Origin: Pseudomonas eutrophicaquae
GTDB taxonomy: Bacteria; Pseudomonadota; Gammaproteobacteria; Pseudomonadales; Pseudomonadaceae
DNA: 43,559 nt
NCBI RefSeq assembly: GCF_023544715.1
Contig: NZ_JAMJEZ010000019.1
Location: 1 to 43,559 of the forward strand
Direction of reading: 5' to 3'
This document shows positions 8,243-43,559 of this stretch, one piece after another. Numbering within the stretch: the stretch's first letter is position 1; every line of letters begins with the position of its first letter. Below the pieces are notes generated by a model that was not told the DNA's origin, made no database searches, and saw only the letters and a list, made by a program, of their open reading frames with translations. The position numbers and the translations under genes were made by a program.

Positions 8243-8260
8243 TCCCTGCCTCCTTCCCGT

Positions 8261-8281: not shown

Positions 8282-8332
8282 GATAGCGCTCCGGCGCTCG
8301 CAAACAGGGACGCGGAGCGTGGGAGCGATCGC

Positions 8333-9238: not shown

Positions 9239-9241
9239 GGC

Positions 9242-11879: not shown

Positions 11880-11916
11880 GCAACGGCCCCGGACGTCTCT
11901 CCGCCGCCCGGGGCCG

Positions 11917-11939
11917 ACGGGGGCGCGCTGCGCCCCCGT
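11917..11939 (+). terminator. Intrinsic terminator after pedE
   Basis: ACGGGGGCGC and GCGCCCCCGT make a perfect 10-bp stem with a 3-base loop, 37 bases after the pedE stop, followed by TCCTTG. Confidence 0.65.
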
Positions 11940-11961
11940 TCCTTGTCGCCCACCGCCCGCC

Positions 11962-12011
11962 GGGTGCGCCATGCGCACCCATTCCCCCTCGGTGCGCACG
12001 GCGCACCCTAC
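11962..12011. repeat. Pair of inverted REP-like palindromes (REPIN-like)
   Basis: Two palindromes in inverted orientation, at 11962-11980 (GGGTGCGCCATGCGCACCC) and 11991-12011, separated by 10 bases. The second is the exact reverse complement of the unit at 8261-8281. They lie just before the pentapeptide-repeat gene. Confidence 0.75.
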
Positions 12012-12023
12012 AGGAATGCCGCC

Positions 12024-12668: not shown

Positions 12669-12696
12669 AAAAAATGTACAGGATTGGCAACTCGCA

Positions 12697-12734
12697 CAGC
12701 AATTGCCTACCGCAGGGGCGGTGGAAAATTGCTG
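12697..12734. terminator. Bidirectional hairpin between convergent genes
   Basis: Outer arms CAGCAATT/AATTGCTG (8 bp) and inner arms ACCGC/GCGGT enclose AGGG, located between the pentapeptide-repeat gene and the end of the response regulator. It is followed by TTTT about 7 bases on the plus side. Confidence 0.6.
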
Positions 12735-12765
12735 CGCGGGTTTTCTACCCTGCGATACTGCGTCC

Positions 12766-26697: not shown

Positions 26698-26828
26698 ATT
26701 GGTCTCCGCTTACGTCAGGACGACTGCCTGATCCAACAGTCGCAGCGATTATCGGGAGCCGGCCGGCACGCTACGTATTCTGCGCAGGACCCGGATCGCT
26801 CGTACTTTCGGAAGACCACAGGGCCCAA

Positions 26829-26838
26829 TACCAAAGGC
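26829..26838 (-). promoter_or_regulatory. Operator half-site upstream of the porin
   Basis: TACCAAAGGC carries a perfect TACCAA half-site about 132 bases before the porin start, in a 254-base gap with no gene. The other half is poor, so confidence is low. Confidence 0.3.
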
Positions 26839-26951
26839 GCTCATCCCCTGCCACCATGGAACACTCAGGTACACCGCTGCGCCCAGCGCAGACGGTCGCC
26901 GGGCGAATGAGCGAGTGGGAGAATGAGCCGCCGCCGCAGCCGGGTAGAGCC

Positions 26952-29477
26952 TCAGTGGCCGAACAGCCAGTACCAGCTCGTCTCAGGCCCGTGCAGCGCC
27001 GTGGCTGCCTGGCACAATTCGGCCTGCGATAGTTCCGCCAGCGCCGTACGTACGGCAGCGGTCCAGCCAGCAGGCTCAGCGTTCAGCCAAGCCTGGCAAG
27101 CGCGCAGGCGGCGGGCGCGCTGCCCGTCTGCCTCAGCCAGACTGTCAAGCACGGCCTGACGCGCTTGCTGCAGGCGCTCCTCGGGCAGCGTCGCCAGTGC
27201 CGCTGCGCCCACTGCGACAAAACGGCGGATAGCCTCCTGCAGTTGCTCGGCGGAGGCGTGGGGAGACTGCACGCCGAACTGCAGCTCGATCCCCGCCTCC
27301 CCCGCCTGGAAGCGGCTGAACAAGGCGTACCCCAGCCCCTGCTCGACCCGCAATGCCTGATAAAACGCGCCCTGGCGCAATACCGCCAGCAAGCGCCAGG
27401 CAGCTTCCTCGCGCGGCGCGATGCGCGGTGCCAGCAGTCGCAGCAGAACCGCCTGCTCGTCGCCACCCAGGCCAAGATGGCGGCGGTGCACGCCAGGCTT
27501 GGGATGCGCGGATGCGGGCGGCGGCGCCGGCGCAAGCCTCCCCCAACCCTGCAGCACCTGTCCGACCTCCTCCGGCACCGCACCAAAATCCAGGCGATGC
27601 AGCGCCGAGTCGCGCAGGAAGCCGCGCAGTAACGCTGGCAGAGCCTCGTCATCAATCTGCGCCAGTACGGCAGCGGACAACGCCTCGTCGCTTGGCCGAC
27701 ATTGTGCCGCCGGATGGTTCAGCATCCGCCGCAACAGCATCTGCTGTGCATCCTCAGCCTCCTGACGCCGCAACGCCGCTCGCCAGGCCCCACCGTCGCG
27801 GCAGTTCAGTGCCGCCAGCAGCATCGACAGGACCGGCGCCAGCAACTGCACCGGACCGCTCAGACAGAAGCGCAGCTGGCTGGGATGCGCCAGCGACCAC
27901 CAATCACAACCCGCCTGTCGCGCATCCGCCAGTGCCTCACGCCAGTGCTGCGTCAGCGCCGCCTCCGCCAGCGGCGCACCCGGCAGGACCACACCCTGCG
28001 CATCTTCGCCACGCCAGCACAGCAGCACCGCCGCATATCCCGGGCGTATTGAGGACGAGCTGCCCGGCAGCACCGATGCTGGAGGGGGGCTGAACGGCAG
28101 GAAGGGGTTAGGCGGCGGTGCCTGCCAACTCAGCGACTGAAGGGCCGGCAAGCCGGCCAGCGGGCGAGCCTGCCAACGGACGGGGAACCAGTGCGTGGTT
28201 ACTGCGCAGGGCAGATGGGGCCGGGCGTACTGCACGATCATCCGTCGCCGCTCTAGCCGAGCCAGACACGCCGCCAAGGTTTTCAGCATCACCGGTGCCC
28301 AAGGTCGCCATTCGCCAACGCCCTGCCGGCGCCAGCGCTCGGCCCACAGAGCGGCGCGCTCGAAGGCTGGCAGTTCGTACTCCTGCCAAGCCTGCTCGCG
28401 GCAAATGGCCTGCCAGACCGGCTCGTCTGCCAGCAGTCGAGGATTCGCGGCGCAGCTTTCGAGCCAGTCGCAGCAGAGCGCGGCGATGGCCCGCTCCTGG
28501 TTCGCGCCGGCATCCAGCAGGTCGATATGCAGGATCAGAAGAACGCTGCCGGCATCCGCTGGCTGCACCTGTACCGCGAGTCGCTGTGCCCAGCCCCGTG
28601 CGCGCAGCTCGCCTACCAGGCTGCCAGCGTCGGCACGTTGCAGTGAACGATCCAACAGGGTCTGTAAGGACTCTTGCAGCTCCGGCTCCAACACCATCGG
28701 CCACCACAGACTCATGCGCCGAACCGCTTCAGGTTGCTGCAAGATCAGTTCACGCGCCGGCTGCTCGGTCGGCCAACAGTCGGGCCAGTCGGGTATGGGC
28801 TCGGGCGGATCGGCCGACAGTGCGCTCAAACGCTCGCGCACTTGACGTTCCAATACATCGAGCGGCTGGGGGCCGCTGATCAGCAGGCACAGATTCGACG
28901 CCCGATAGTGACGGGCATGCCAGTCGCACAGGTCGATCATGAACTGCGTACTCTGCGGCTGCAAAGTGTCCTGCGCGCCGGCATGAAAGCGCGACAGCGG
29001 ATGCCCGGGATGCAGCTGCTCAGCGATGGCAGCCTGCACCTGCTGCGCGCCATCGACGCAACGCGCCAGATACTCGGCGTGCAGGACCGCACGCTCGCGC
29101 AGCAGGCGTTCGCGGCAGAACAGCGGACGGAACAGCAGATCATCCAGCGCAGCGAGCGCCGCCGGCCACTGGCGGGCGGGCATTTCCAGCAAGTACAGGG
29201 TCTGCAGGGCCAGCGTGCGGGCGTTGTAGCGCCCACCGTGGGCATGCACATAGTCGGCGAAGTCGCTCGTCCCGGGACATCCGTGGCTGCCGAGAAACAG
29301 TGCATGCTCGATGAAATGCGCCAAGCCCGGCCAGCTCGCAGGCTCATGGAAACTACCCGCCGCCAGACTGGCGGCTAAAGCGATGCGCGTCGTCTGCGGG
29401 TCGTGGAGCAGCGCAACCTGCACGCCGTTTTCTAAGTGCAAGGTACGCTGCGCCAGGGAGGGAAACTCGCAGCCCAT
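26952..29477 (-). CDS. pqqF: PQQ biosynthesis zinc protease PqqF
   Basis: M16 (insulinase/pitrilysin) family metalloprotease, 841 aa. The inverted zinc motif HxxEH is present as His54-Phe-Ile-Glu57-His58 in WPGLAHFIEHALFLGS, and the third ligand Glu is 77 residues after His58 in VLHAEY, the usual spacing. PqqF takes part in trimming the PqqA peptide from which PQQ is made. ATG at 29477 is chosen: it gives the typical short PqqF N-terminus, whereas a TTG at 29546 would start only 14 bases from the perfect operator palindrome. None of pqqA-E is in the window. The C-terminal half is less conserved, as is usual for the family. Confidence 0.87.
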   Translation of the reverse strand: MGCEFPSLAQRTLHLENGVQVALLHDPQTTRIALAASLAAGSFHEPASWPGLAHFIEHALFLGSHGCPGTSDFADYVHAHGGRYNARTLALQTLYLLEMPARQWPAALAALDDLLFRPLFCRERLLRERAVLHAEYLARCVDGAQQVQAAIAEQLHPGHPLSRFHAGAQDTLQPQSTQFMIDLCDWHARHYRASNLCLLISGPQPLDVLERQVRERLSALSADPPEPIPDWPDCWPTEQPARELILQQPEAVRRMSLWWPMVLEPELQESLQTLLDRSLQRADAGSLVGELRARGWAQRLAVQVQPADAGSVLLILHIDLLDAGANQERAIAALCCDWLESCAANPRLLADEPVWQAICREQAWQEYELPAFERAALWAERWRRQGVGEWRPWAPVMLKTLAACLARLERRRMIVQYARPHLPCAVTTHWFPVRWQARPLAGLPALQSLSWQAPPPNPFLPFSPPPASVLPGSSSSIRPGYAAVLLCWRGEDAQGVVLPGAPLAEAALTQHWREALADARQAGCDWWSLAHPSQLRFCLSGPVQLLAPVLSMLLAALNCRDGGAWRAALRRQEAEDAQQMLLRRMLNHPAAQCRPSDEALSAAVLAQIDDEALPALLRGFLRDSALHRLDFGAVPEEVGQVLQGWGRLAPAPPPASAHPKPGVHRRHLGLGGDEQAVLLRLLAPRIAPREEAAWRLLAVLRQGAFYQALRVEQGLGYALFSRFQAGEAGIELQFGVQSPHASAEQLQEAIRRFVAVGAAALATLPEERLQQARQAVLDSLAEADGQRARRLRACQAWLNAEPAGWTAAVRTALAELSQAELCQAATALHGPETSWYWLFGH

Positions 29478-29559
29478 ACCGATCACCGTGTGCTGGAAAC
29501 ACGCTCTAGCCTGCGTGCCAGAGTGGCACCAGGCAATCCTGCTCAAGTAGCGTCTGACA

Positions 29560-29575
29560 CGCTACCAAGGTAGCG
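29560..29575 (-). promoter_or_regulatory. Perfect operator palindrome upstream of pqqF
   Basis: CGCTACCAAGGTAGCG is a perfect 16-base palindrome containing TACCAAGGTA without mismatch. It ends 82 bases before the pqqF start codon. Together with 15198-15207 it defines the consensus. Confidence 0.75.
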
Positions 29576-29583
29576 GTGAACCA

Positions 29584-29600
29584 CTCCGGGAATTCCGGAG
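29584..29600 (-). terminator. Small hairpin after the 88-aa gene
   Basis: CTCCGG and CCGGAG pair around five bases, 18 bases after the stop of the small gene at 29618. It is short and without a T-tract, so it is a weak terminator candidate. Confidence 0.35.
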
Positions 29601-29617
29601 TTCCTGGGGCGGCTCAA

Positions 29618-29884
29618 TCACCGCGCCTCCCACAACGTCACGATTTCATGTTGCAGGTCATCAGCGTTATCGGTTTCCAGGTGCCCGACCGACTCGAGGG
29701 CGTCGACCCAGGCCACCAGCCGGTTGGCTGCCCAGTCACGTTGCTGGGTCAGTAACGCAGGGCGTTCAGGCTGTGGAATTTCCAGCGCGTCATAGTCGGG
29801 TTCACGTTGACCGCGCAGGTACTCCAGTGCCACAGCAAAGTGGGATGAAGTGGCGGCCAGATCGTCCAGGGTCTTGTGAGTCAT
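29618..29884 (-). CDS. Small protein of unknown function, last gene of the CobN-like cluster
   Basis: Predicted 88-aa soluble, acidic protein with no membrane segment, signal peptide or recognised motif. It contains alternating helical stretches (for example ATSSHFAVALEYLRGQ and NRLVAWVDALESVGHLE). ATG 29884 is supported by GAGGAG about 10 bases upstream; an in-frame extension to 29935 is possible but has no ribosome site. It lies 120 bases downstream of the 173-aa gene on the same strand and may be the last member of that unit. I do not recognise the family. Confidence 0.6.
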   Translation of the reverse strand: MTHKTLDDLAATSSHFAVALEYLRGQREPDYDALEIPQPERPALLTQQRDWAANRLVAWVDALESVGHLETDNADDLQHEIVTLWEAR

Positions 29885-30004
29885 TGCTTTGGGCTCCTCG
29901 GGGCGGGCGTTGCGCTTGACGTATTTTGCCACCACCTACCCGATCAGTTCTCGCCCTGCGGGCCTCTGTAGTACCGGGCACCAGGCGCTGAGGGTGCCCA
30001 CCAC

Positions 30005-30526
30005 TCAGTGCAGCAGGCTACGATGGGGTTCCGGTGCCGCCTCAGCGGGTGTCATCCATGCCGGCCACACGCTGGTCGGCCATTCGCCACGCAGGCACTG
30101 CTCGTACACGATCCCCAGCCACTGGCGCAGCGGCTGTGCAGCGAGGGGTAGCGTCACACGGGCCTCGGCGGCGCCCTTGAAGGTGAGCACTACCCCCTCC
30201 TCGCGCGGGGTGATCTCGATCGAGTCCACGCGCCATCCAGGGTCTGAGTCAGCGGCCCGCACCGGTGGCTCGGCCCCCAGCCGAGCACGGGCCGCTTGCT
30301 GGGCAAAGCCCTGGACCAGCTCCTGATGGGCGGCCTGTATCGAGGGACGGCTCGAGGCCGGCGCCACCTGCCGCTCCAGCCAGGCGGTGAGGTGTGGCAC
30401 CAACCGATTCACCAGCCGCTGGGTGAGCCACAGCACCACGGTGTCGCCGCTGGCCAGCTCGCCGGTCAGACGGATGCGATCTTCAAGACCGACGTATTCG
30501 AGGGTGACGCGCTGCAGAGTGCCCAT
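30005..30526 (-). CDS. Protein of unknown function in the CobN-like cluster
   Basis: Predicted 173-aa cytoplasmic protein without signal peptide. The N-terminal part, RVTLEYVGLEDRIRLTGEL followed by VVLWLTQRLVNRLVPHLTAWLE, is a beta hairpin then an amphipathic helix; the middle is low in order; the C-terminal part (SIEITPREEGVVLTF) is again beta-rich. I do not recognise a named family. ATG 30526 is preceded by AAGGA; an alternative start at 30565 overlaps the DUF2149 stop. Position between DUF2149 and the 88-aa gene suggests it belongs to the same operon. Confidence 0.7.
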   Translation of the reverse strand: MGTLQRVTLEYVGLEDRIRLTGELASGDTVVLWLTQRLVNRLVPHLTAWLERQVAPASSRPSIQAAHQELVQGFAQQAARARLGAEPPVRAADSDPGWRVDSIEITPREEGVVLTFKGAAEARVTLPLAAQPLRQWLGIVYEQCLRGEWPTSVWPAWMTPAEAAPEPHRSLLH

Positions 30527-30564
30527 TTCTCTACATCCTTGATCCACAACTGTGCGGACGCACA

Positions 30565-30900
30565 TTACTGCAGAGCGGCGTCCTCCGGTACATAGATCAT
30601 ACTGCCGTCATCCAGGCGATAGGCCGTCCCGGCCTTGCTGCCCTGCCCTTCGCCCATGCTGCCGGTCGATTTGAACTGCTTGAGCTCCTTGCCCTCCTGT
30701 ACCAGCATCTCCATGTTCGGCTGCCCCGGATTCTTGATCACGATGACCTCCTCGGCCTGTGTGAACGGGTTCAGGGGGTTGGACATCACGATGATCAGCA
30801 GCACCGCGATGATCACCAGAAACAGATCGACCAGATTGACCACGCTGATGATCGGGTCATCGTCCTCGTCTTCCAGGATGTTCAGGCCGATGCGCTTCAT
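30565..30900 (-). CDS. DUF2149 protein, ExbD/TolR-like membrane protein
   Basis: Protein of 111 aa with a short acidic cytoplasmic N-terminus (LNILEDEDDDP), one membrane helix (about residues 20-42, VNLVDLFLVIIAVLLIIVMS) and a periplasmic domain of about 65 residues. The Asp in NLVDLFLV sits near the start of the helix, as the proton-carrying Asp does in ExbD and TolR. DUF2149 genes recur beside CobN-like and MotA/TolQ-like genes. The start overlaps the preceding MotA/TolQ-like gene by four bases. Together they would form a small proton-driven motor that energises the receptor or the periplasmic chelatase-like protein; this is inference. Confidence 0.85.
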   Translation of the reverse strand: MKRIGLNILEDEDDDPIISVVNLVDLFLVIIAVLLIIVMSNPLNPFTQAEEVIVIKNPGQPNMEMLVQEGKELKQFKSTGSMGEGQGSKAGTAYRLDDGSMIYVPEDAALQ

Positions 30901-31370
30901 GCCACCGCCCCCTGATGCAGCAACTGCTTGAGCTCCTCAAGCAGCCAGCGGCGGCGCACCGAAAGCATCCAGAACGCCATCGAGGCCGCCATCAGGGCAA
31001 TGATCACCGCAGCAAACGCCACGGTCAGCGAGTCGGCCACCGCCGCAAAATCGCCATTGGCCACCGACATCAGCGCCGGCCCCATGGGAATCATGGTGGC
31101 GACCAGGCCGAGCATGGGCGCGACCCGGCTGACCAGTCGAAGCGGTTCCAGACGCCTGAGCAGATGCAGCTCAATGTCTTGCGCATCGGCCTGCGGATGG
31201 CGGCGGTGAAAGGCCGCCAGTGGCCGGGCACGGCGCGCGCCCTGCACCAGCTCCAGCATGAAGCGCCCCCACTCGAACAGCGCATAGACGAACATCGCCG
31301 CCAGCATCAGCAGGACCGGGCTGAGAAACAGGCCGGCCACTTCGGACATCAGTTGTTCCAGTGCATTCAT
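30897..31370 (-). CDS. Short MotA/TolQ/ExbB-family proton channel protein
   Basis: Inner-membrane protein, 157 aa, three helices (about residues 10-33, 84-104, 112-137). The region LRLVSRVAPMLGLVATMIPMGPAL is the classical MotA/TolQ/ExbB signature (APMLGLLGTV in ExbB). It is shorter than ordinary ExbB (about 240 aa). It starts 13 bases after the CobN-like stop and overlaps the DUF2149 start, so the three genes are one unit. Predicted role: proton channel of an Exb/Tol-like motor dedicated to this system. Confidence 0.87.
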   Translation of the reverse strand: MNALEQLMSEVAGLFLSPVLLMLAAMFVYALFEWGRFMLELVQGARRARPLAAFHRRHPQADAQDIELHLLRRLEPLRLVSRVAPMLGLVATMIPMGPALMSVANGDFAAVADSLTVAFAAVIIALMAASMAFWMLSVRRRWLLEELKQLLHQGAVA

Positions 31371-31383
31371 AAGGATCTCTCGT

Positions 31384-34300
31384 TCAGGGATGAAGGGTGC
31401 GCCGGGTATACCAGGCCTGATAGAGCAGGCCGCACAGCCCGAGCAGCAGCAGGCCGAGCCAGTACCAGGTACGGGGCTGTGGTGCCGGTGGCTGGACCTC
31501 CTGCATCAGTTGTCCCTGCACGACTGGCAGGTCCTGACTGGCTTCGGCCGCGGGAGTTTCCGGCATGGCGGCGGGCTTTGACGCGGCAGAGAGCGCCGCC
31601 TGCTGTGGCGCCGGGCCAGTCAGGCCATAGCCGGCCGAAAGCTCGGCGACATAGCGCTTGAACGCCTCGTTGCGCGTGTGCAGATCATGCTTGGCCGCCA
31701 GCTCCTGGTAGAGCTGTACCAGCTGGCGCTGGGTTTCTTCGCTGGCCTGCCAGTACCCCTTGCGGATCGCCTCCAGCATCCGCTCGGCAATCTGCCCCAT
31801 GGCATCGGCGTTGTGCTGCTCGAACCACTCGCGCGTCCCCAGCGCATATTTATCGGCCATATAGACCTGATGAAATTCCTCCCACTGGTCATCGCGCACC
31901 ACATTGCGATCCATCACCTGCCAGCCCCAGAAATTGTTGATCGCACTGAGCAGCTCCAGCGTGCCGGCATATCCCTCCTGCTGCATTTCCTTGATCCAGT
32001 TGGGATGCTGGTAGACCGCACGCAGCTCGGTGGCCATGAAGCGCTCGGCGCTCTGCAGGCGCGCCTTGTCGGGGTTGCGCAAATTGGCGATGTACAGCTG
32101 CGGCGCCTTGCCCTCCAGATGCTGCAAGGCCAGGGAAATGCCCCCGAGGTATTCAAAGGGATGGTCGGTATCGAGCAGCCCGCGCAGGTTCGAGGAGCGC
32201 GAGAACATCGCCGCATCCGTGCCTTTAAGCTGCTCGGCATAGACGTTCAGGGCGCGACCATTAGCCCCCGCAGGCTTGCGGCTCCACTGCGTCGTGTCCG
32301 GTCCATAGGCCCAGGACATCCGCGACAGATACAGCTCGGCCAGTTTGCCGTCCTTCTCGTCCCACTTATCCGACGCCAGCGTGGCATCCGGCAGCTGGGT
32401 GCCGTAATCACCACTTTCCGTGCCAAAGACCCGGGTCAGCGCAAAGTTGCGGGCGTCCTGCGCAGGCATTCCGTCTGCCAGCAACTGCTGCTCGATACGC
32501 AGCGTATTGGCCCTCACCGGGTTCTGCTCAGGCGGCTCATCCAGCGCAGCCACCAGCGCAATCGCCTCGTTGAAGCGCTCCATGACGTTAGGGAACTGAT
32601 CGCGGTACAAGCCGGTGAGGGAAATCACCACATCGACCCGCGGACGGCCCAGACGCTCCAGCGGAATCACCTCCAGTCCAATCACCCGCCCGCCGCTGTC
32701 CCAGCGTGGCTGCACGCCCAGGGCATGGAAGATCTGCGCCTCGAGCATGCCCAGATGACGCAGGGTTTCCGTGCTCCACATGCTGAAGGCTAACCTGCGC
32801 GGCGCCTGCCCCTGTGTGGCGCGATGGCTCTCCAGCAGGCCCTCGAGAGCCTCGACGCCGGCAGCGTGCGCGGCCCGAGTGGGTACCCGTGACGGATCAA
32901 AGCCGTACATATTGCGCCCGGTCGGCAGCGCGTCGGGGTTGCGGATCGGATCACCGCCGTAGGATGGATCAATCCAGCGCGCACTGAGGCCATCGATCAG
33001 GGCCTGCGATTCACGGGCAGCCTTGAGGTTTTCCAGGTGACGCCGCCCCTTTTCCAGCACCGCCTGCTGGGCCGCGCTGGGGGCGTCGAGCGGTGTGCCC
33101 TGCACCAGATGCCGCAGCACGAAACGATAGGGCTCACTGTCACGGATCTGCCGATAGTCGGCGCGCCGCAAATCGTTGGCGGCGTCACTGCCCAGCACCT
33201 GCAACAACTCATCCCCCAGGATCAGCATCAGATTCAGGGCCAGATGCTCATCCGGCGCCGTCTCACCGAAGGTGTGCAGCCCCAAGGGCTGCATGGCCGC
33301 CCCCAGATCCTCCAGGTAATCCTCGACCCCCCGCAGGAAGGCCGGGAACTCGGCATCAGTGGGCAGCGTCTCGCGGTCCAGATCCTTGAGCACCTGCATC
33401 GCCGTGACCTGCTCGAGGATCGCGCGGCGGGTGTTGGCCCGCACCAGCCCCTCATCCAGGGCGTGGTATTCGCGGATCTGCTCATTGAGGGCCACGAAGT
33501 CATCGGACAATCCCGCCGGCGAGAACGCCGGGGTCTGATGGCTGATGACCACCCCGCGCCCCCGGCGCTTGACGTGCAGCGCCTCGCCGATGTTGTCGAC
33601 GATGTAGGGATACAGTACCGGCACATTCCCGACGGCCAGGTTCGGTGCATCGAACGCCCACAAGCCACGCTCCTTGCCCGGATGCCACTCCTGGGAGCCG
33701 TGGGTGCCGAAGTGGATGATGGCATCACTGGCAAACTGCTCACGCGCCCAGAGATACACCGCGGCGTAGTAGTGATTCATGACCTTCTTGGTGTCGTGGA
33801 GCAGATCCTTCTCCTGCTCGGCACTGCTGCCACCCCGAGCCGGCTGCGGCAGGATGACCAGATTGCCCAGCGCCAGGCGCGGAATCACGAAGCCATCCAC
33901 GCCGTTATGGGTGACCCGTTGCGGACTGTCCTCGGCACGTCCCCAGTGCGCGTCCATCTCCTGGGCAACGGCGGGTGGCAGGGTTTTCAGCCAGCCTTTA
34001 TAGGTGCTGAGCGGCAGAAAATCCCAGAGATCGCCGCGCATCAATTCACTCAGCGCTTCGGGCCGGTAGGCCGGGCGCAGCATCTGCGCCACCGCATCGA
34101 TCATCTGCTGCTCGGCGACCGGACTCAACGCGTAACCTTCGGCCTGCAGATCACGGGTCAGGCGCGCCAGCGAGCGCGGCACATTCATGTTCGACGCCCC
34201 CTGGTTGTTTTCGCCCGGTGGCGAATTCCAGAAGAACAGCGCCACCCGTTTCTGGGCATTGGGCAGGCGCTGCAGACGGGCCAGGGCGAGTGCCTTGCCA

Positions 34301-35445
34301 ACCAGCAGATCCAACTGCTCGGGCAGGCTGCGCTTTTCGCCCTGTGCATTGACCGTGAGGATCACCGGGTCCTGAATCCCGATGTATTCCGCATTGGTCA
34401 GGGTGAACGGCAAACGGAAGGCATCCACACCGGCCAGATCCTCACGATAGGCGGCGGCATCGCCCTGGGTGTAATGCAGCACGTTGAGCACCGGAATCCC
34501 CAAGGCCTGATAACGCGCCTTGCGTCCCTCGACATCCCCGCCGAGGAAGGTGTTGACCAGCAGCACATTCGCCAGCGGCCGCCCTTCCAGGGTCAGCAGC
34601 GGCTCGGATGACACCGCGCGCTGCACCGCCTGCGGATTGGGGAATGGACTGCTCGCCGCAGGCTCAACCGCTGCCGGCCGCGCACCCGCAGGCGCGACCC
34701 ACTCGCGCCGCTCACGCGACGCCTCGCGGTAGAACACCACGGGGACCGCGCCGGCGGTTTCCAGCGCCTGAATGACCTCATCCAGATGCCGCTCCTGCCC
34801 GTCGGCCAGGTAGCTGGAGGTGGTTTCCATCGCCACCACCGGCTGCTGCAGCGGATCGACGCCCTGACGGCTGCGCCACCAGTCGAGATAAGCCGGTAGC
34901 GCAGTGAACAGCTGCTGTGGCGCCGCCGGGTGGTAAATCGCCCCGGCGGGCAGCGGCTGGGCGGCCGCCACGGCGTTGAGGTCACGCGCCTCCATCCATG
35001 CCCGCAGATACGTGAACAGCCGCTGCCGGTTGACCGGCATGCCGTTCAGGTAATACTCGGCAATCCGCTGCGCGACTTCCTGCGGCGCGTTGATGGCCAC
35101 CAGACGGGCCTGCGGCGTCATGCGGTTGATCTGCACGATCGGGACGCGGGTTTCACGCAGAAAGGCGCCAGCCGCGGCCTCGACCTTGGCCTGATCATCC
35201 GGGCGCGGCGTATCGATCAGGATGCGCTCGGCCCCCTGCAATGCCGCCTGCAGTTGCTCGGCAGGTGCGGCATCAACCTGCACCCAGGCCAGCTCCACCC
35301 CCTGCTCGCGGGCGGCCGCCTCCATCAGGGTGAACTTGTGGGACATCACAAACCCCGTGGACAGCAGCGCCACCTTGGGCGCGGCCTGCAACAGACCGGC
35401 CGATCCGCACCAGGCGATCAGCAGGATGCTCAACAGTCGTTTCAT
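31384..35445 (-). CDS. Exported, C-terminally anchored CobN/Mg-chelatase-H-like protein
   Basis: Large protein of 1353 aa with CobN/BchH family character: HFGTHGSQEWHPGKERGLW, YPYIVDNIGEALHVKRRG, RVDVVISLTGLYRDQFPN and the FWGWQVMDRNVVR region. Unlike cytoplasmic CobN of B12 synthesis it starts with a signal peptide (MKRLLSILLIAWCGSAGLLQA) and ends, after a proline-rich linker, with one membrane helix (about residues 1326-1344, WYWLGLLLLGLCGLLYQAW) and a basic tail. The bulk should therefore be periplasmic. No CobS/CobT or ChlI/ChlD partner is nearby. ATG 35445 is preferred because GGGAG lies 5 bases upstream; a GTG at 35448 is too close. It follows the receptor stop by about 10 bases. Possible roles are metal removal from, insertion into, or binding of a corrinoid or other tetrapyrrole, or metal capture. 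Confidence 0.9.
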   Translation of the reverse strand: MKRLLSILLIAWCGSAGLLQAAPKVALLSTGFVMSHKFTLMEAAAREQGVELAWVQVDAAPAEQLQAALQGAERILIDTPRPDDQAKVEAAAGAFLRETRVPIVQINRMTPQARLVAINAPQEVAQRIAEYYLNGMPVNRQRLFTYLRAWMEARDLNAVAAAQPLPAGAIYHPAAPQQLFTALPAYLDWWRSRQGVDPLQQPVVAMETTSSYLADGQERHLDEVIQALETAGAVPVVFYREASRERREWVAPAGARPAAVEPAASSPFPNPQAVQRAVSSEPLLTLEGRPLANVLLVNTFLGGDVEGRKARYQALGIPVLNVLHYTQGDAAAYREDLAGVDAFRLPFTLTNAEYIGIQDPVILTVNAQGEKRSLPEQLDLLVGKALALARLQRLPNAQKRVALFFWNSPPGENNQGASNMNVPRSLARLTRDLQAEGYALSPVAEQQMIDAVAQMLRPAYRPEALSELMRGDLWDFLPLSTYKGWLKTLPPAVAQEMDAHWGRAEDSPQRVTHNGVDGFVIPRLALGNLVILPQPARGGSSAEQEKDLLHDTKKVMNHYYAAVYLWAREQFASDAIIHFGTHGSQEWHPGKERGLWAFDAPNLAVGNVPVLYPYIVDNIGEALHVKRRGRGVVISHQTPAFSPAGLSDDFVALNEQIREYHALDEGLVRANTRRAILEQVTAMQVLKDLDRETLPTDAEFPAFLRGVEDYLEDLGAAMQPLGLHTFGETAPDEHLALNLMLILGDELLQVLGSDAANDLRRADYRQIRDSEPYRFVLRHLVQGTPLDAPSAAQQAVLEKGRRHLENLKAARESQALIDGLSARWIDPSYGGDPIRNPDALPTGRNMYGFDPSRVPTRAAHAAGVEALEGLLESHRATQGQAPRRLAFSMWSTETLRHLGMLEAQIFHALGVQPRWDSGGRVIGLEVIPLERLGRPRVDVVISLTGLYRDQFPNVMERFNEAIALVAALDEPPEQNPVRANTLRIEQQLLADGMPAQDARNFALTRVFGTESGDYGTQLPDATLASDKWDEKDGKLAELYLSRMSWAYGPDTTQWSRKPAGANGRALNVYAEQLKGTDAAMFSRSSNLRGLLDTDHPFEYLGGISLALQHLEGKAPQLYIANLRNPDKARLQSAERFMATELRAVYQHPNWIKEMQQEGYAGTLELLSAINNFWGWQVMDRNVVRDDQWEEFHQVYMADKYALGTREWFEQHNADAMGQIAERMLEAIRKGYWQASEETQRQLVQLYQELAAKHDLHTRNEAFKRYVAELSAGYGLTGPAPQQAALSAASKPAAMPETPAAEASQDLPVVQGQLMQEVQPPAPQPRTWYWLGLLLLGLCGLLYQAWYTRRTLHP

Positions 35446-35455
35446 CACTTCTCCC

Positions 35456-37729
35456 TCAGAACCGCAGCGCTACACCGGCCTGCCAGACGCGGCCGGGATC
35501 CACGACAATCGACAGATCTTCGCGGTTGTAGACGCCATTGGCGTCGGAGTCGTAGAACCCGCGCGCGCTGGAATAGAAGCGCTCATCCAGCAGGTTGTCG
35601 ACTTTGAGGAAGGCGGTGAACTGCAGCGGGATGTCACCGGGCGCCATGAAACGCCGCTGATGGGACAGCGCCAGATTGAACAACGTGCGCGAGGGCAGCG
35701 TTTCCTGGTTCAGCTCATCGGCATAGCTGGTGCCCCGATAGTCCATCTCGCCACTCAGCTTCCAGTGCTCGACCGGGAACCAGTTCACCCGCAGGTTGAG
35801 CAGATGGCGCGGTGTGCGCGGCACGCTGTTGCCGCTGTTGTCATAGCGCAGGAACAGCACCTGACTGGCCGGGTTGCTGAACTGGGCCGGATCACTGACC
35901 AGGGCGCCATAGGGGTTGCCCAGGGCCAGGAAGTAGTTGTCGTAATCCTTGAAGCGGCTCTGCAGGAAGGTGTAGGCCAGATCGAAGGACAGGCGGTGGC
36001 GCACCTCGGTACTCAGCGCCAGCTCAAAGCCACGACTGGTCACCCCGCCGATGTTTTCCGGGCGCGGCTCCTCGATATCGGCTGCAGCACTGGCCGCCTT
36101 GTCATTGACGTACTGACCGACGTTGCTGGTGATGAAATCGCGCCGGTCAATGTAGAACAGCGAGGCGTTGAGGCGGGTCGGCCAGCCCAGCCACTGGCTG
36201 TCCTGGTGCAGGCCGATTTCGTAGGTGTAGGCGGTCTCCGGGTCCAGATCCGGGTTATCGGCATACTGACTGACGGTGGGATTGCGGAACCCGGTGGAAA
36301 CCGCACCGTACAGCGACAGATCCGCACTCAGCGCCTTGTTGAAGCCCAGGCGCCAGGAGTGGTTCTGGTACCTGTCACCGGTGTGCAGCCCGCCGGCCAG
36401 GCGATCCAGACCATCCAGATCGGTACTGTCGAAACGGTAGTTGGCCACCAGCGTCAGCCCCTTATCCAGCGACAGCTGCGCCTCGCTGTAGAGGGCTCGG
36501 GTGCGCTCCTCGGTCAGGTAGTCCGACTTGAGCGTGCCCTGCTCGACGACGATCAGGCGGGGGCGGATCGTGGTTGCGTAGCTTTCTTTGGCGGTGGCTT
36601 GCTCATCGAAGGTATTACGGCGCACCTCGGCTCCGCCCATCAGCCCGAGGCGACCGAAGGTTTCCCGGATCTCGAATTTGAGCCCCTGCTGCACCTGGGC
36701 ATAGTCATTGTCGTTCTGGTACTGATCGACCTGATTATCGCTGACCGGACGCCCCTGGGCGTCGTAGCGGATGGGGGCCGACCAGTAGCGGGTGTCATCG
36801 GTGTATTGATAGCCCAGCAGCTGCAGCGTGCCGGTCGCGGAAAAATCCCGCGAGTAGGTGAGATTGTAGCGAGACAGCTCCACATCGAACTGGCGGGTGT
36901 AGCCACGCCCCTCGCTCACGCCGCGCGGGTCGTATTTCGCCATCGTGGCGCCCGATACCGAGCCCTCGCGATCCCGAAAGCGCTCGCTCACCTCGAAACC
37001 GAATGTCAGATCGCTGACATCATCGAGAAAATACTGCAGGTTGCCGGAGAGGCTGGTAGTGTCGCGCTCCGACAGCTCGTAATAGCCATCGCTGCGACGC
37101 GAGACCCATTGCAGGTGTCCTGCCAAGTGTTCGCTGGCAAAGCCGCCGCGCAGGCTGTCACGCTGATAGCCAAAGGAGCCGCGATCGTGCTCGATCGCCA
37201 CGCCCTCGTGACCGGCGCCGCGCTTGGTGGTGATGATGACGGCGCCGGCCAGCGCGTCCTCACCAAACAGGTACGAGGCCCCGCCCTTGACGACACGAAT
37301 CGACTGGATATTGTCGAGATCCACGCTGACCTTGCCGGTCCGCTCGAACACCGGCACGCCGTCGATGACGATGGCCACGCCCGGCTTTTCGCCCATGTAG
37401 CGCTGGTTCTCGATCCCCCGCAGCTTGATCTTGATGCTGTCACCTTCGCCAGACAGATCCGCAGTCACCCCCGGGACAGCCCGCAGGACCTCGATCAGGT
37501 TCGTGGCATGCCGCTCGCTGATTTCCTCATGCTCGATCACCGTTGTGCTGGAGACGACTCGGCTGTCGGCGGCAAAGCGATCCGAAATCGTCGAGCCCGT
37601 GACGGTCAGGCTCTCAAGCTGCACCGGCTCTGCGGCGTACAGTGAGGGGACGGTGCTCGCCAGTAACCATGTGATGGGCGTGCGCAGGGCCTGACTCCGG
37701 AGGTGGAGCCATTGCAGGCGGAAGGACAT
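35456..37729 (-). CDS. TonB-dependent outer-membrane receptor
   Basis: Receptor of 757 aa with a signal peptide (about residues 12-32, ending SLYAAE), a TonB box (VQLESLTVTGS), a plug domain (VLRAVPGVTADLSGEG, GVAIVIDGVP, IQSIRVVKGGASYLFGEDALAGAVIITTK) and a 22-strand barrel ending GVALRF. The plug resembles catecholate/haem/cobalamin receptor types (COG1629); substrate specificity cannot be told from sequence. It is the first gene after a structured leader and is followed almost immediately by the CobN-like gene. AGGA precedes the ATG. No TonB gene is in the window. Confidence 0.93.
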   Translation of the reverse strand: MSFRLQWLHLRSQALRTPITWLLASTVPSLYAAEPVQLESLTVTGSTISDRFAADSRVVSSTTVIEHEEISERHATNLIEVLRAVPGVTADLSGEGDSIKIKLRGIENQRYMGEKPGVAIVIDGVPVFERTGKVSVDLDNIQSIRVVKGGASYLFGEDALAGAVIITTKRGAGHEGVAIEHDRGSFGYQRDSLRGGFASEHLAGHLQWVSRRSDGYYELSERDTTSLSGNLQYFLDDVSDLTFGFEVSERFRDREGSVSGATMAKYDPRGVSEGRGYTRQFDVELSRYNLTYSRDFSATGTLQLLGYQYTDDTRYWSAPIRYDAQGRPVSDNQVDQYQNDNDYAQVQQGLKFEIRETFGRLGLMGGAEVRRNTFDEQATAKESYATTIRPRLIVVEQGTLKSDYLTEERTRALYSEAQLSLDKGLTLVANYRFDSTDLDGLDRLAGGLHTGDRYQNHSWRLGFNKALSADLSLYGAVSTGFRNPTVSQYADNPDLDPETAYTYEIGLHQDSQWLGWPTRLNASLFYIDRRDFITSNVGQYVNDKAASAAADIEEPRPENIGGVTSRGFELALSTEVRHRLSFDLAYTFLQSRFKDYDNYFLALGNPYGALVSDPAQFSNPASQVLFLRYDNSGNSVPRTPRHLLNLRVNWFPVEHWKLSGEMDYRGTSYADELNQETLPSRTLFNLALSHQRRFMAPGDIPLQFTAFLKVDNLLDERFYSSARGFYDSDANGVYNREDLSIVVDPGRVWQAGVALRF

Positions 37730-37783
37730 GCAGTTTTCCTGTTCTTATCCGGTCGAAGGACGGTGCATGCGCTGAGGGCCGGC

Positions 37784-37811
37784 AAAAAAAGCCCCCCTGT
37801 TTCCAGGGGGG
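37784..37811 (-). terminator. Strong intrinsic terminator/attenuator before the TonB receptor
   Basis: On the minus strand CCCCCCTG and CAGGGGGG form a perfect 8-bp stem with a 4-base loop followed by seven consecutive U. It ends 54 bases upstream of the receptor start codon and has no good promoter after it, so it either ends the upstream operon or acts as an attenuator. Confidence 0.88.
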
Positions 37812-38003
37812 ACAGTGCCAATCTGCAGTCCCTGCAGCGAGCGGAGAACCTCGAACCCGTTGTGGAACCCCTAAGCTCCGGTTCGAGGCCGGCGCAGTCT
37901 CCGCAGGCGGCGCCCTGCGCTCAACTGCGACAATCCGCCCCAAGCTTGCCACAGACCGCCGGGGCACAAGGCCTGCGTCAGGGTGTGGCAGCCTGTCGCA
38001 GAC
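37812..38003 (-). ncRNA. Candidate structured leader RNA upstream of the attenuator
   Basis: The 192 bases before the terminator are not coding and hold two extended pairings. Domain 1: CTGCGACA (38001-37994) with TGTCGCAG (37932-37925), enclosing TGCCACA/TGTGGCA. Domain 2: GCGGAGA (37904-37898) with TCTCCGC (37847-37841), enclosing CCTCGAACC (37888-37880) and GGTTCGAGG (37857-37849), all perfect. A CTGCAG/CTGCAG hairpin (37823-37837) lies between domain 2 and the terminator. This is riboswitch-like in size and layout, but I could not fit the conserved cobalamin-riboswitch core, so the ligand is left open. Confidence 0.5.
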
Positions 38004-38543
38004 TCAGAGCGGCAACCAGCGACGAAATCCTGTGCTACCCCGCGAAGCCAGCGGGCACCAGGCGATATCCCAGGGGGTCGGGGGCAGCTCTTCCTGTTCG
38101 ACCGCCAGTGGCAGGCGGGATGCCACATGCTCCTTCCATTCAAAGACCCGGACACCGCTGTCGCGACAAGACAGCACAACGCCCAGCGCCTGGGTGTCGT
38201 CACTGACGGCCCAGCGGGCGGCAGAGGCAATCATCAGCGCTTCGACCTGCTCCTCCGTCAGGCGATCGCGGTATTCCGAGGCCAGCAACCAGCGGCAGGC
38301 CTGAAGGTGAAAGGTCCAGTTCAGCGGGACGCGCTGGCGATAGGCCCAGCGCATGAAATGGCGAAATAGCTCGATGCCCTCGCAGGCATCGAGCTTGAGC
38401 AGACTGGGACAGATATCGAACAGGGCATGCCAGTAGGGCATCAGCCGGGCGTCGAGCTGTACAAAGGAATGAGCATTGCCGGGGTAATCGGGGAAGGGTT
38501 GTATAGCCGGCCGTTTAGCAGGCAGACGAGCCAGTTTTTCCAT
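38004..38543 (-). CDS. Protein of unknown function upstream of the TonB receptor
   Basis: Predicted 179-aa soluble protein, rich in Trp, Leu and Arg, with several helices (MPYWHALFDICPSLLKLDACEGIELF, WTFHLQACRWLLASEYRDRLTEEQVEAL). Some cysteines and histidines are scattered, not in a recognisable metal site. The start is uncertain: ATG 38543 lacks a clear ribosome site, and a GTG at 38624 would lengthen it by 27 residues to lie seven bases from the previous stop. I do not recognise the family; the position between DUF1826/DUF2946-like genes and the receptor suggests a shared role. Confidence 0.65.
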   Translation of the reverse strand: MEKLARLPAKRPAIQPFPDYPGNAHSFVQLDARLMPYWHALFDICPSLLKLDACEGIELFRHFMRWAYRQRVPLNWTFHLQACRWLLASEYRDRLTEEQVEALMIASAARWAVSDDTQALGVVLSCRDSGVRVFEWKEHVASRLPLAVEQEELPPTPWDIAWCPLASRGSTGFRRWLPL

Positions 38544-38630
38544 GCGCAAACATCCAGAGGAACCAGAAACGAAGACACCTGCCACGGGCGATGGCAGGCG
38601 AACAAACGAACGTGCAGCGGGCACGCTGGT

Positions 38631-39002
38631 TCATGGGGCGCGGGGATTGAGGGCGGGCCGGCTTCGGCGCGGGGGTGATTTGTTGCAGGGCTGACGCCAG
38701 GGTAGCGCCCGGACTGGACGACGTGGCCACCAGCAGACCAGCAGGAGCAGCCCCGGTATCAGGACCAGGGCACTGCAGACCGGACAGTCGAGCAGGTTGA
38801 GCGAGGGATCATCACCGGGCAGGGTGCCGAGCGAGGCAACGCGACCGTCCTCACCGGCACACCAGGCGGCATCCAGCAGCACGTCACTCAACAGCATGGC
38901 CAGGCGGTGCTGAGGGCAGGCCAACAGCGTCAGCAGCACACTCATACAGAGCAGGCTGGCCAGCAGGGCGCGATGTGGGTGGCGCAGGAACATCCCTGTC
39001 AT
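38631..39002 (-). CDS. Small exported or membrane protein, DUF2946-like
   Basis: Protein of 123 aa with an N-terminal hydrophobic segment (about residues 12-29, signal or anchor), a central part with CAGEDGRV and LDCPVCSAL, a second hydrophobic helix (about 78-93, LVLIPGLLLLVCWW) and a basic proline-rich tail. The Cys-x-x-Cys near a membrane helix after a CxxxG segment is typical of DUF2946 proteins, which accompany TonB receptors and metal genes. The function is unknown. ATG 39002 is used; ATG 38993 is an alternative. It begins 27 bases after the DUF1826 stop. Confidence 0.65.
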   Translation of the reverse strand: MTGMFLRHPHRALLASLLCMSVLLTLLACPQHRLAMLLSDVLLDAAWCAGEDGRVASLGTLPGDDPSLNLLDCPVCSALVLIPGLLLLVCWWPRRPVRALPWRQPCNKSPPRRSRPALNPRAP

Positions 39003-39029
39003 GTACCGAGCAGTTGCAAAAAAGTCGCC

Positions 39030-39665
39030 TCACTCCAGCCAGTCGAGCGTCAGCAGCAAGCGTCGTTCGTCGTCACTGACGGGGGGTGAGCGGTGGATGA
39101 TGGCGCCGTGCTCGTTGCCCTCCCACCGTTCCCCCTTGAGCAAGGCTACATCCCCGGTACGCATCGAGTGGATCATATCTTCAGCCACTTCAAGAGCCAG
39201 ATTACTCAGCTGCAGGCGTGCCAGGGGCGTGTCTGCCAACCACTGACTGCCCGCCCCAACGTAGGTGGTCACCAGACGTAGCGGTACGCGGTCGACATGG
39301 AAGCGCGGACACATGGCCTTGTCAAGCAAACGCAGGCGCAGGCCAACGCGCCGCGCATCCAGCAGGCAGGCATAGGCCTGTAGAAGCCAGCTCACGTCCG
39401 CGATAAAGGCGGCATAACCCGGCAGATTCGAGAACTCACTCGCCAAGTGATGGAGTTCCGGCTCGGCATCGGTGATCTCGAGGCTCAGGGAGTCCGCCAG
39501 CGGCCGGCCACACGCCACCAGCGCGGCGGTAAATTCAGATACCTCCTGTGAGAGGGTGCGCTGCCAGACCGCTAGGTTGACGCCATCGTGCAGCACTTCA
39601 GTGAGCACCTCTGGCGAGTCCCCGCAGACCTGACGCGGTGGCGCCATGAGTTTCAAAGCCCGCAT
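39030..39665 (-). CDS. DUF1826 family protein
   Basis: Cytoplasmic protein of 211 aa. It shows the DUF1826 pattern: an opening with NLAVWQRTL, then CPRFHVDRVPLRLVTTYVGAGSQWL in the middle and the C-terminal segment GDVALLKGERWEGN followed by AIIHRSPP. The spaced CPxFHxD residues, His in the C-terminal half and the beta-rich character suggest a metal-binding cupin-like fold. DUF1826 genes often sit beside Zur-regulated COG0523 metal chaperones, so a link to zinc limitation is plausible. ATG 39665 is selected over 39722 because it has AGAGGAGGG about 7 bases upstream. It is the first gene of the minus-strand series leading to the receptor. Confidence 0.78.
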   Translation of the reverse strand: MRALKLMAPPRQVCGDSPEVLTEVLHDGVNLAVWQRTLSQEVSEFTAALVACGRPLADSLSLEITDAEPELHHLASEFSNLPGYAAFIADVSWLLQAYACLLDARRVGLRLRLLDKAMCPRFHVDRVPLRLVTTYVGAGSQWLADTPLARLQLSNLALEVAEDMIHSMRTGDVALLKGERWEGNEHGAIIHRSPPVSDDERRLLLTLDWLE

Positions 39666-39811
39666 CAAACGCCCTCCTCTGCCAGCAATCTGTCCCGGCT
39701 TGCCAACCCGGTGGGGCGGCACATGCCGCGGCCATGCCCTTTGCCGCGGGCTCCAGCGCCCCGTGAGTCAAAATAGTTCATCGGCGCACCTCACGCGAGC
39801 CCATTAAAAAC

Positions 39812-39828
39812 TTGTTATAACGTAATAA
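39812..39828 (-). promoter_or_regulatory. Zur-box-like AT-rich dyad upstream of DUF1826
   Basis: TTGTTATAACGTAATAA resembles the gammaproteobacterial Zur site (TGTTATAnTATAACA, about three mismatches over 15 positions) and is the only strongly AT-rich block in the neighbourhood. It lies about 147 bases before the DUF1826 start. The 345-base gap 39666-40010 otherwise contains only a possible transposon-end relic at 39884-39902. Confidence 0.45.
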
Positions 39829-40010
39829 ATTATCCAAAACCGGTGGTTGCGTCCACAGATCTCAGCAATGCTGTAGAAGGTATTGATGTGTACAAAAGGC
39901 AGGATCAGGGGCAGCAAGTAGGGACGCCGGCGTGCCTCTTGACCGCCCGCGGTGATGGAGCCCACCCTGTGAGTCTTTCGTTTTGGTCGACCCTTCAGGA
40001 GCGCTTACGC

Positions 40011-40226
40011 ATGATCATCGATCTTTCCGGCAAGACGGCCCTTGTGACCGGATCCACCAGCGGCATCGGACTGGCCATTGTCCGAGGGCTGGCCGAGGCC
40101 GGCGCGACCGTCATCATCAGCGGTCGCCAGCAGGCACACGTCGATGCCGCACTGGCAGGGCTGCGCACCACGCGGGCCGGTGCAGCGCTGCGCGTTGAAG
40201 GTGGCATCGTCGAAAGCATCGCCTGA
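40011..40226 (+). pseudogene. Truncated short-chain dehydrogenase/reductase fragment
   Basis: Starts with [20 protein letters not shown], the Rossmann nucleotide-binding segment of SDR enzymes (TGxxxGIG), continues through [10 protein letters not shown] and stops after 71 residues where the family runs to about 250. The catalytic Ser-Tyr-Lys part is missing. The last residues ([10 protein letters not shown]) depart from the family pattern, so the break lies near 40190. CAGGAG lies 11-16 bases before the ATG. Best read as the remnant of a gene cut by deletion or insertion; a short functional peptide is unlikely. The following 239 bases (40227-40465) hold no gene. Confidence 0.8.
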
Positions 40227-40247
40227 TCCGCCCACCACAACCCTATG

Positions 40248-40276
40248 CCACACCGCCCGCACAGCGCTGTGTGGCG
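40248..40276. terminator. Hairpin after the SDR fragment
   Basis: GCCACAC and GTGTGGC (7-bp arms, 15-base loop) lie 22 bases after the fragment stop. No T-tract is present. Confidence 0.3.
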
Positions 40277-40465
40277 TATGGTTGCAGGGCGTACGCGATG
40301 CAGGGAGCCTGACCCATGTCGCAATACGGATAAACCTTGATTGATCGGCAGTGAAGTTCATCACAAAATGCCGGCCAGCTGATATCAATGGCTGGATGTG
40401 TAAGGAGTGGCTGCACATCATGTTCGGCTGATTCCCTCGGTACCCGCCCCCCCACGAGACCGTGC

Positions 40466-42136: not shown

Positions 42137-42147
42137 GCACTATCGAC

Positions 42148-43428: not shown

Positions 43429-43559
43429 GGTGATGTTGATCCGTGAACAACCGCTATTCTGGCGGTGAGTTTAAAGATCATGGTAACCGATCCATGAACC
43501 CCATCTGCTAATAACCGGCGCATCCGCCGATGCTGTGCTCCCGATCATTTTCAGGAGCC
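43429..43559. other. Intergenic end of window with a ribosome-site-like sequence
   Basis: The final 131 bases hold no gene. They must contain the promoter of the UbiB-like gene on the minus strand. The last bases (TTTTCAGGAGCC) look like a ribosome-binding site for a plus-strand gene starting just past the window. Confidence 0.3.

Follow-up and report, generated by a model that had tools for sequence, protein, structure and literature searches.

Described relatives of the system

The chelatase proteins CobN (of cobaltochelatase) and ChlH (of magnesium chelatase) are cytosolic and work with ATP-dependent AAA+ partners. Here we describe a locus of Pseudomonas eutrophicaquae that encodes a CobN-like protein with features of export and membrane anchoring, next to a TonB-dependent receptor, a short ExbB-like protein and a DUF2149 protein. 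The locus lies on contig NZ_JAMJEZ010000019.1, of which positions 1 to 43,559 were analysed; this whole stretch of 43,559 nucleotides is called the window. We give an even chance to the reading that the four genes form a scavenging system of the HmuS/BtuS kind for copper or zinc starvation, in which the CobN relative demetallates what is imported and is driven by a proton motor of its own.

Published work is cited here from the accessible parts of each article. For HmuS of the hmu operon, the residues His538, His1209 and Glu1212 have been described (PMC12583661). Fractionation of Porphyromonas gingivalis HmuS in Escherichia coli was consistent with an inner-membrane protein facing the periplasm, which its authors regard as supporting evidence only (PMC13227078). 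In Pseudomonas aeruginosa, PA1922-PA1925 belong to the Zur regulon, and PA1923 was induced 122-fold in a znuA mutant (PMC4542158); PA1925 is a DUF2149 protein, and PA5534, a DUF1826 gene, is listed in the same regulon (PMC9431628). The parallel to PA1922-PA1925 and their response to zinc starvation, to which the original prediction had pointed, is well founded. DUF2946 (CruR) proteins are encoded by copper-sensing leader open reading frames (ORFs) with a CxxC motif and a terminal RAPP about 45 residues apart, which head operons of receptor, Sco and PCuAC genes (PMC9426467). In the accessible literature we found no link of PA1923 to HmuS, no assignment of the ExbB-like/DUF2149 pair to the chelatase and no copper clade. 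The type of machine is known, and a family sorted by metal and equipped with its own motor would be a new reading; new here is comparative evidence which suggests that the pair follows the chelatase.

The locus and its CobN-like protein

The genes lie on the minus strand and are ordered, in the direction of transcription, as TonB-dependent outer-membrane receptor (35456-37729, 757 amino acids), CobN/HmuS-like protein of the chelatase family (31384-35448), ExbB/TolQ/MotA-like short protein of the proton-channel type (30897-31370, 157 amino acids) and DUF2149 protein (30565-30900, 111 amino acids). A gap of 7 bp separates the receptor from the CobN-like gene, as tight as had been predicted, and 13 bp separate the latter from the ExbB-like gene. 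The downstream pair does overlap, by 4 nt, although both of its genes lie outside the interval 31384-37729 to which the original prediction referred. A single PF02514 match, the CobN-like gene, occurs in the genome, which measures 2.55 Mb at a completeness of 99.85.

This gene comprises 1354 codons from a GTG start or 1353 from the next ATG, and its product matches PF02514 with 957 bits over residues 131-1239. The N-terminus, VMKRLLSILLIAWCGSAGLLQAAP, resembles a signal peptide in its hydropathy; at the other end, a linker rich in Pro and Ala connects the body to a hydrophobic helix, WYWLGLLLLGLCGLLYQAW, which is followed by a short basic tail. Export and anchor features were judged by a hydropathy scan with cytosolic-type CobN proteins as control. 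The C-terminal helix separates the two types completely: hydropathy was at least 1.32 in all 57 exported-type proteins with a complete 3' end, among them that of the window, and at most 0.55 in all 27 controls. The 1353-residue CobN homologue with a C-terminal membrane helix, as noted in the original prediction, is confirmed. The N-terminus is a weaker discriminator, since values of at least 1.75 were found in 55 of the 57 exported-type proteins (the two below, L048 and L049, depend on the chosen start codon) but also in three of the 27 controls. At least two Lys or Arg residues occur among the first 12 residues of the tail in 55/56 exported-type proteins. According to the positive-inside rule, such a tail would place the chelatase body in the periplasm.

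The NCBIfam equivalog model NF004644 (cobaltochelatase CobN) assigns 1598 bits to the window protein at a cut-off of 1248; annotated genomes therefore probably misname proteins of the exported type. A role outside B12 synthesis, as originally predicted, is backed by the lack of any CbiC/CobH match in the window's genome. More broadly, CbiC is missing from 10 of 14 genomes with an exported-type CobN, compared with two of 23 genomes that have the cytosolic type only. The original prediction had also named co-occurrence with CobT as a check; CobT is indeed absent from the genome, yet it is present in just 5 of 57 genomes, which makes this a weak test and CobT a poor marker of cytosolic CobN in this set.

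The closest solved structure is the heme dechelatase HmuS of Bacteroides (PDB 9D26, E = 2.5e-122), which ranks above ChlH and CobN. A protein built in this way is no longer without explanation, which corrects the original prediction, since the structure of HmuS, a heme de-chelatase with the same architecture, has been solved. H583, H1096 and E1099 of the window protein align with H538, H1209 and E1212 of HmuS, which constitute its site 2. The conservation of these positions was determined from an alignment that left out 17 loci and proteins shorter than 1100 residues as incomplete or duplicate. At the position of H583, histidine is kept in 45/46 exported relatives, in all four proteins of the B12-riboswitch type and in all 27 cytosolic ones. 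At the position of H1096, histidine is found in HmuS, ChlH and 36 of the 46 exported relatives (Asp in nine, Met in one), and aspartate in 25 of the 27 cytosolic CobN proteins and in all four of the B12 type. The position of E1099 is occupied by glutamate in 36/46 exported relatives, by glutamine in 25/27 cytosolic proteins and by aspartate in the B12 type. The methionine-rich domain IV insertion of HmuS is missing in the window protein: 73 residues separate the aligned blocks (query 738-812), as against 240 in HmuS (692-933). The N-terminus of HmuS with site 1 (Met79/His254) could not be aligned with the window protein, and the positions within residues 22-380 that are conserved in 85% of the 46 exported relatives include no methionine.

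A quick tree of 60 rows, which omitted 20 further close relatives and did not contain PA1923, recovered all exported types together with HmuS as a group separate from cytosolic CobN (Shimodaira-Hasegawa-like approximate likelihood-ratio test, SH-aLRT, 96), with long-branch warnings. The window is placed inside a clade that holds loci with copper-type signals; its nearest relatives are from Thiomicrorhabdus and Denitrificimonas, and its subclade includes nitrifiers, methanotrophs and a Denitrificimonas. Several relatives have unusual gene complements. In L096 (relatives' loci are given by L numbers), two CobN-like genes lie in tandem (5132-9094 and 9098-13168); HFGTHG and DHxxE have been lost from the first, which may be a copy without catalytic activity. 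The CobN-like genes are broken across several frames in L073 (9938-14033, with L052), L087 (9635-13750) and L097 (9035-14070); L073 and L052 are the two CobN-like loci of Nitrosomonas europaea.

The partner of the ExbB-like/DUF2149 pair

The ExbB-like protein matches PF01618 with 31.7 bits (cut-off 22.9). Its structural model is confident and consists of three long helices, and the 45 best Foldseek matches are all TolQ or ExbB proteins. Thr92 is invariant in 26 sequences, and its helix aligns with that of ExbB at a probability of 60%. The DUF2149 protein matches PF09919 with 100 bits and carries an aspartate, Asp25, in its single membrane helix, which is likewise invariant in 26 sequences. Its model gave no Foldseek match at E ≤ 0.001, and its profile a single PDB match below 0.001, a designed protein (8qag). 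"ExbD-like" serves here as a working label for this protein, given by its position.

In order to see which partner the pair accompanies, genomes were surveyed at two scales. Of 57 genomes (the window's own and those of 56 relatives), 14 encode a CobN of the exported type; DUF2149 was found in exactly those 14; it is absent from the remaining 43, of which 23 have cytosolic-type CobN only and 20 have no PF02514 match. CobN types were assigned in this set by score and length and verified by sequence in part; one entry (G046) is a fragment. PF02514 is present in 134 of 398 genomes of the same phylum; DUF2149 was located 18 times, in 17 of the 398. An ExbB-like gene is close by in 18/18 cases, and a piece of the CobN family (PF02514) lies within 1.5 kb of 17; the remaining place has one on its contig at a distance of about 2.4 kb. 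For five of the 18 places the PF02514 neighbour comes from a separate look. No DUF2149 gene apart from PF02514 was found among these 398 genomes. The linkage of the three genes is thus both tight and specific.

The individual loci show the same association. An ExbB-like gene is present in 56 of 64 exported-type loci, and in six of the eight loci without it the CobN gene lies no more than 124 bp from a contig end; L027-L031 were excluded from one set of locus scans. The order of the genes varies, with the pair upstream in L041, L044, L067, L087, L094, L095 and L096. The type of receptor varies too, while CobN, ExbB-like and DUF2149 genes remain together: complete receptors of the window type score 629-961 bits against the window receptor, and those elsewhere 23-48 bits, where CobN still exceeds 1600 bits. 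The receptor that the original prediction had called the system's own does adjoin, but its type changes between loci and the other three components keep together.

In 14 of the 56 loci with an ExbB-like gene, a canonical set of TonB, ExbB and ExbD genes is present in addition to the dedicated pair, on the same strand and at most 4.5 kb away (representatives were confirmed by Pfam). One motor suffices per receptor, and the pair as the second motor is best explained as the chelatase's own. The window's genome has three canonical ExbD genes elsewhere, and no TonB gene was found among the window ORFs scanned. Among 14 control genomes, only Methanosarcina acetivorans has a DUF2149 match, and PF02514 also occurs in this genome. 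To our knowledge this archaeon has neither an outer membrane nor a TonB receptor, so that its DUF2149 protein cannot serve a receptor. From these comparisons, the motor more probably serves the chelatase than the receptor.

Regulatory signals

Sister lineages differ in their predicted signals: some have a B12 riboswitch, others Zur-type boxes or a copper-sensing leader gene of the CruR type. A cobalamin riboswitch lies directly 5' of the CobN-like gene in all four tested loci of the type with about 1450 residues (L036, L037, L038 and L040); none of the 23 other exported-type loci scanned has one in this place, and L032 has one 3' of the cluster. L042 has a perfect Zur-type palindrome (14/14) about 60 bp 5' of its receptor gene; in L032 and L096, sites of 12/14 precede the cluster by about 51 and 40 bp, respectively. 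In each case, 0 of 200 resamplings were as good. In 47 of the 50 upstream regions tested there is no Zur-type site as good as 12/14. Genes of the Fur family, of COG0523 and of DUF1826 are neighbours of the L096 cluster. A review describes the control of PA1922 by Zur as apparently peculiar to P. aeruginosa among Pseudomonas species (PMC10393844, accessible text); by contrast, L042 and L032, both from genomes of the same family, have strong sites of the Zur type immediately 5' of the receptor. Two small RNAs were noted at relatives' loci, PrrF in L042 (same family) and Pseudomonas P15 in L046 (same genus).

Small ORFs with the pattern CxxC-N41..49-R[AG]P were found at most 1.5 kb 5' of a receptor on the same strand in the window and in ten relatives' loci, out of 70 sources scanned. 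The pattern matched 19 of 9198 ORFs, 13 of which lie upstream of a receptor, and a control with reversed residues gave nine matches. This motif count is a fairer test than our own CruR profile, which was trained on several of its own matches. In L088 the gene order is DUF2946, SCO1, PCuAC, receptor and CobN; NosL adjoins the cluster of L066, and PCuAC genes are near those of L048 and L076. A survey of copper-type neighbours that covered 95 of 134 preselected genes yielded PCuAC three times, DUF2946 twice and TonB_C seven times. PepSY_TM genes occur in some clusters (L049, 11246-13012; L070, 8598-9869); this family has a siderophore-reductase member (PMC9426467).

Upstream of the window operon, a CruR-like (DUF2946-like) small ORF on the minus strand (38631-39002) is a candidate copper-sensing leader gene: CPVC is followed after 44 residues by RAP at the stop codon, and this spacing fits. 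It gave no match to our own CruR profile at E ≤ 0.05, nor was a CruR match found in the nearest relatives, Thiomicrorhabdus and Denitrificimonas; NosL has no match in the window's genome. Further upstream lies a DUF1826 gene (39030-39722, minus strand, start uncertain), preceded by a Zur-box-like site, TGTTATAACGTAATA (39813-39827), which agrees with TGTTATANTATAACA at 11 of 14 positions. The best Zur-type site directly before the receptor (37730-38004) reaches 7/14. A pattern drawn from the window site itself has two exact matches in the genome, the window site and one between ORFs that are FolE2-like and COG0523-like by reading of their translations. When up to two mismatches are allowed, matches to the pattern scarcely outnumber those to its reversed control (14+18 versus 13+16), which leaves the two exact matches as the sole evidence in its favour; the presumed zur/znuA promoter has no match within two mismatches. 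The window hence shows both copper-type and zinc-type signs; the putative regulators point to copper or zinc here and to other metals in sister clades.

A hairpin with a T-run that resembles an intrinsic terminator (37792-37811, minus strand) is located 63 bp 5' of the receptor start and most simply ends an upstream unit. As it lies between the upstream genes and the receptor, these may or may not be transcribed together. The GC-rich leader at 37780-38003 (minus strand) folds better than 200 of 200 shuffled sequences (z = -3.7) and is unique in the genome. It was rejected as an attenuator: a cut of 230 nt gave z = -1.7, a control region of the window -2.5, and the leaders of 12 relatives +1.7 to -2.7. 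A cobalamin or other riboswitch before the operon was likewise discarded, as there is no Rfam match at E ≤ 1 in 26000-43559.

Flanking genes

A 186-residue ORF (30005-30565, minus strand), which overlaps the DUF2149 gene by 1 nt at the end of that gene, has no family match and no homologue in 69 scanned loci; it is probably outside the core set. The ORF at 38004-38624 (minus strand), between the CruR-like ORF and the receptor, has no assigned function, and its membership is doubtful. On the 3' side of the cluster there are genes for a PqqF-like M16 peptidase (26952-29546), just below its NCBIfam cut-off, and for the nitric-oxide-sensing protein NosP (24133-25296). A plasmid search returned 159 records, all with an identity below 60%.

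Interpretation and alternatives

In a scavenging system of this kind, the receptor would import a metal complex into the periplasm, probably a tetrapyrrole of copper or zinc or another chelate. With the C-terminal helix as its anchor and its body on the periplasmic side, the CobN-like protein would bind the complex in its conserved cavity and release the metal; His583 and His1096/Glu1099 would serve as ligands and acids, in the manner proposed for HmuS. In the inner membrane, the ExbB-like protein and the DUF2149 protein would make up a small stator driven by protons, which would act on the CobN-like protein and replace the ATP-driven AAA+ partners of cytoplasmic CobN and ChlH. The interpretation given in the original prediction is in this sense partly supported.

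The published reading assigns the corresponding pair, HmuU/HmuV, to the receptor (PMC12583661, PMC10100974). Applied to the window, the ExbB-like/DUF2149 pair would energise the TonB-dependent receptor, and the CobN-like protein would demetallate without a motor. This reading has been published for Bacteroides thetaiotaomicron, the receptor gene usually adjoins, and recombinant HmuS turns ferroheme into protoporphyrin IX (PPIX; EMBO J); on the assumption that this HmuS was made without HmuU/HmuV, the motor would be dispensable in vitro. Further findings speak against a dedicated chelatase motor as well: in L048 and L083, the accessible part of the contig contains no ExbB-like gene near the cluster; the best Foldseek E-value of the ExbB-like model is 0.016, and the best PDB match of its profile is MotA (E = 0.034); the profile alignment of DUF2149 Asp25 with the aspartate of ExbD is weak (probability 45%, 26 columns), and the DUF2149 model is poor (pLDDT 65.5, pTM 0.28). 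We nevertheless consider a motor for the receptor somewhat unlikely. Neither the lack of a TonB gene among the window ORFs scanned nor the second canonical TonB/ExbB/ExbD set of 14 loci would be expected from it, and the pair stays with CobN when the receptor type is swapped, was never found away from PF02514 as far as its DUF2149 member is concerned (398 genomes), and has a DUF2149 counterpart in an archaeon. PMC13227078 allows for the possibility that HmuT, HmuU and HmuV influence the activity of HmuS.

With respect to the metal, copper comes first for the window and zinc second. Zinc import as proposed for PA1922-PA1925, by a receptor and a CobN-like Zn2+-binding protein under Zur control and with no tetrapyrrole chemistry, would account for the Zur-like box and the DUF1826 gene upstream in the window, for the boxes directly upstream in L042, L032 and L096, and for the induction of PA1923 in the znuA mutant. 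It is distinctly unlikely, however, in view of the conserved motifs of the chelatase cavity with their HmuS-type histidines, the copper signals that appear instead in part of the window subclade, and the occurrence of such a box in just three of 50 upstream regions; moreover, in the window the box (11/14) is 2 kb from the receptor and the terminator-like hairpin separates its unit from it, which weakens the scavenging reading too. Acquisition of copper, in which an imported copper complex would be stripped for periplasmic copper chaperones, is a narrower and non-exclusive form of the scavenging reading and a possibility worth holding, short of a probable one. It agrees with the CxxC/R[AG]P ORFs before receptors, with the copper genes at L088, L066, L048 and L076, and with the nitrifiers, methanotrophs and Denitrificimonas of the subclade. 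Against it and, in part, against the scavenging reading as a whole, the CruR-like ORF of the window is a weak match: the final Pro of RAPP is missing, and DUF2946 (PF11162) is matched at E = 0.027 with 15.7 bits, below the cut-off of 23.7. The nearest relatives lack a CruR match, few copper-type neighbours were found in the wider survey, the window's genome lacks a NosL match, and the Zur-like box is present. An ordinary membrane-bound cobaltochelatase subunit of B12 synthesis, as the name attached to NF004644 would have it, is very improbable, given a genome without CbiC/CobH match and CobT, the signal-like N-terminus and C-terminal helix, the histidine where 25/27 cytosolic CobN proteins carry aspartate, and the frequent lack of CbiC from genomes with the exported type.

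Viewed across the family, exported CobN relatives might strip metals in the periplasm with the energy of protons. They would be class I chelatases that moved out of the cytoplasm a single time, replaced the ATP-driven AAA+ motor by a dedicated ExbB-like/DUF2149 stator and later diverged by metal into lineages for iron/heme (HmuS), cobalt or corrinoids (the B12-riboswitch clade), zinc (the Zur-box clade) and copper (the clade headed by CruR, in which the tree places the window). We regard this proposal as tentative and, taken as a whole, doubtful. The residue at the position of HmuS His1209 may follow the metal, with His in HmuS, L032, L034, L042 and the copper-signed clade, and Asp in the B12 clade; L096, which has a Zur box and an Asp or degenerate motif, and an Asp clade without known signal fit this pattern poorly. 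If the small motor drives the chelatase, proton motors of the TonB/Tol/flagellar type would serve a type of client new to them, and the chemistry of chelatases would be possible without ATP. Bacteria would then be able to extract, within the periplasm, metals besides iron from tetrapyrroles or chelates like these, and many database entries named cobaltochelatase CobN would be metal scavengers.

Comparison with known systems

Cytoplasmic CobN and ChlH share with the window protein the homologous body and a motif of the HFGTHG type, but cytoplasmic CobN has no anchor and, in 25 of 27 cases, Asp and Gln at the positions of His1096 and Glu1099. The CruR/DUF2946 gene of Bordetella pertussis (bp2923-bfrG-bp2921) resembles the CruR-like ORF in its small size, in the CxxC and R-A-P motifs about 45 residues apart and in its location upstream of a receptor; it ends, according to the accessible text, in RAPP and not in RAP at the stop codon, and in the window an ORF and a terminator-like hairpin intervene before the receptor. 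BtuS, a name for CobN-related proteins (Rodionov 2003, via the accessible text of PMC6460266), is like the window protein a third CobN type outside B12 synthesis, suggested to act in metalloporphyrin salvage; its control by a B12 riboswitch is found in the sister clade of about 1450 residues and not in the window.

The two closest systems are operons of similar composition. PA1922-PA1925 of P. aeruginosa likewise comprise receptor, CobN-like, ExbB/ExbD-type and DUF2149 genes and are induced there by zinc starvation; the published Zur site is assigned to the operon itself, whereas the box of the window precedes a DUF1826 unit that looks separate. In the hmu operon (HmuYRSTUV) of Bacteroides and Porphyromonas, HmuY and HmuT have no recognised counterpart among the window ORFs scanned, a model of HmuT being possibly absent from the profile libraries; HmuS also differs from the window protein in its methionine-rich insertion and in its regulation by iron or heme, as compared with the copper- and zinc-type signs of the window. 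Both operons combine a receptor with genes of the MotA/TolQ/ExbB type and of DUF2149, and both encode a CobN-family body with a signal peptide (by hydropathy in the window), membrane helices and the residues of site 2.

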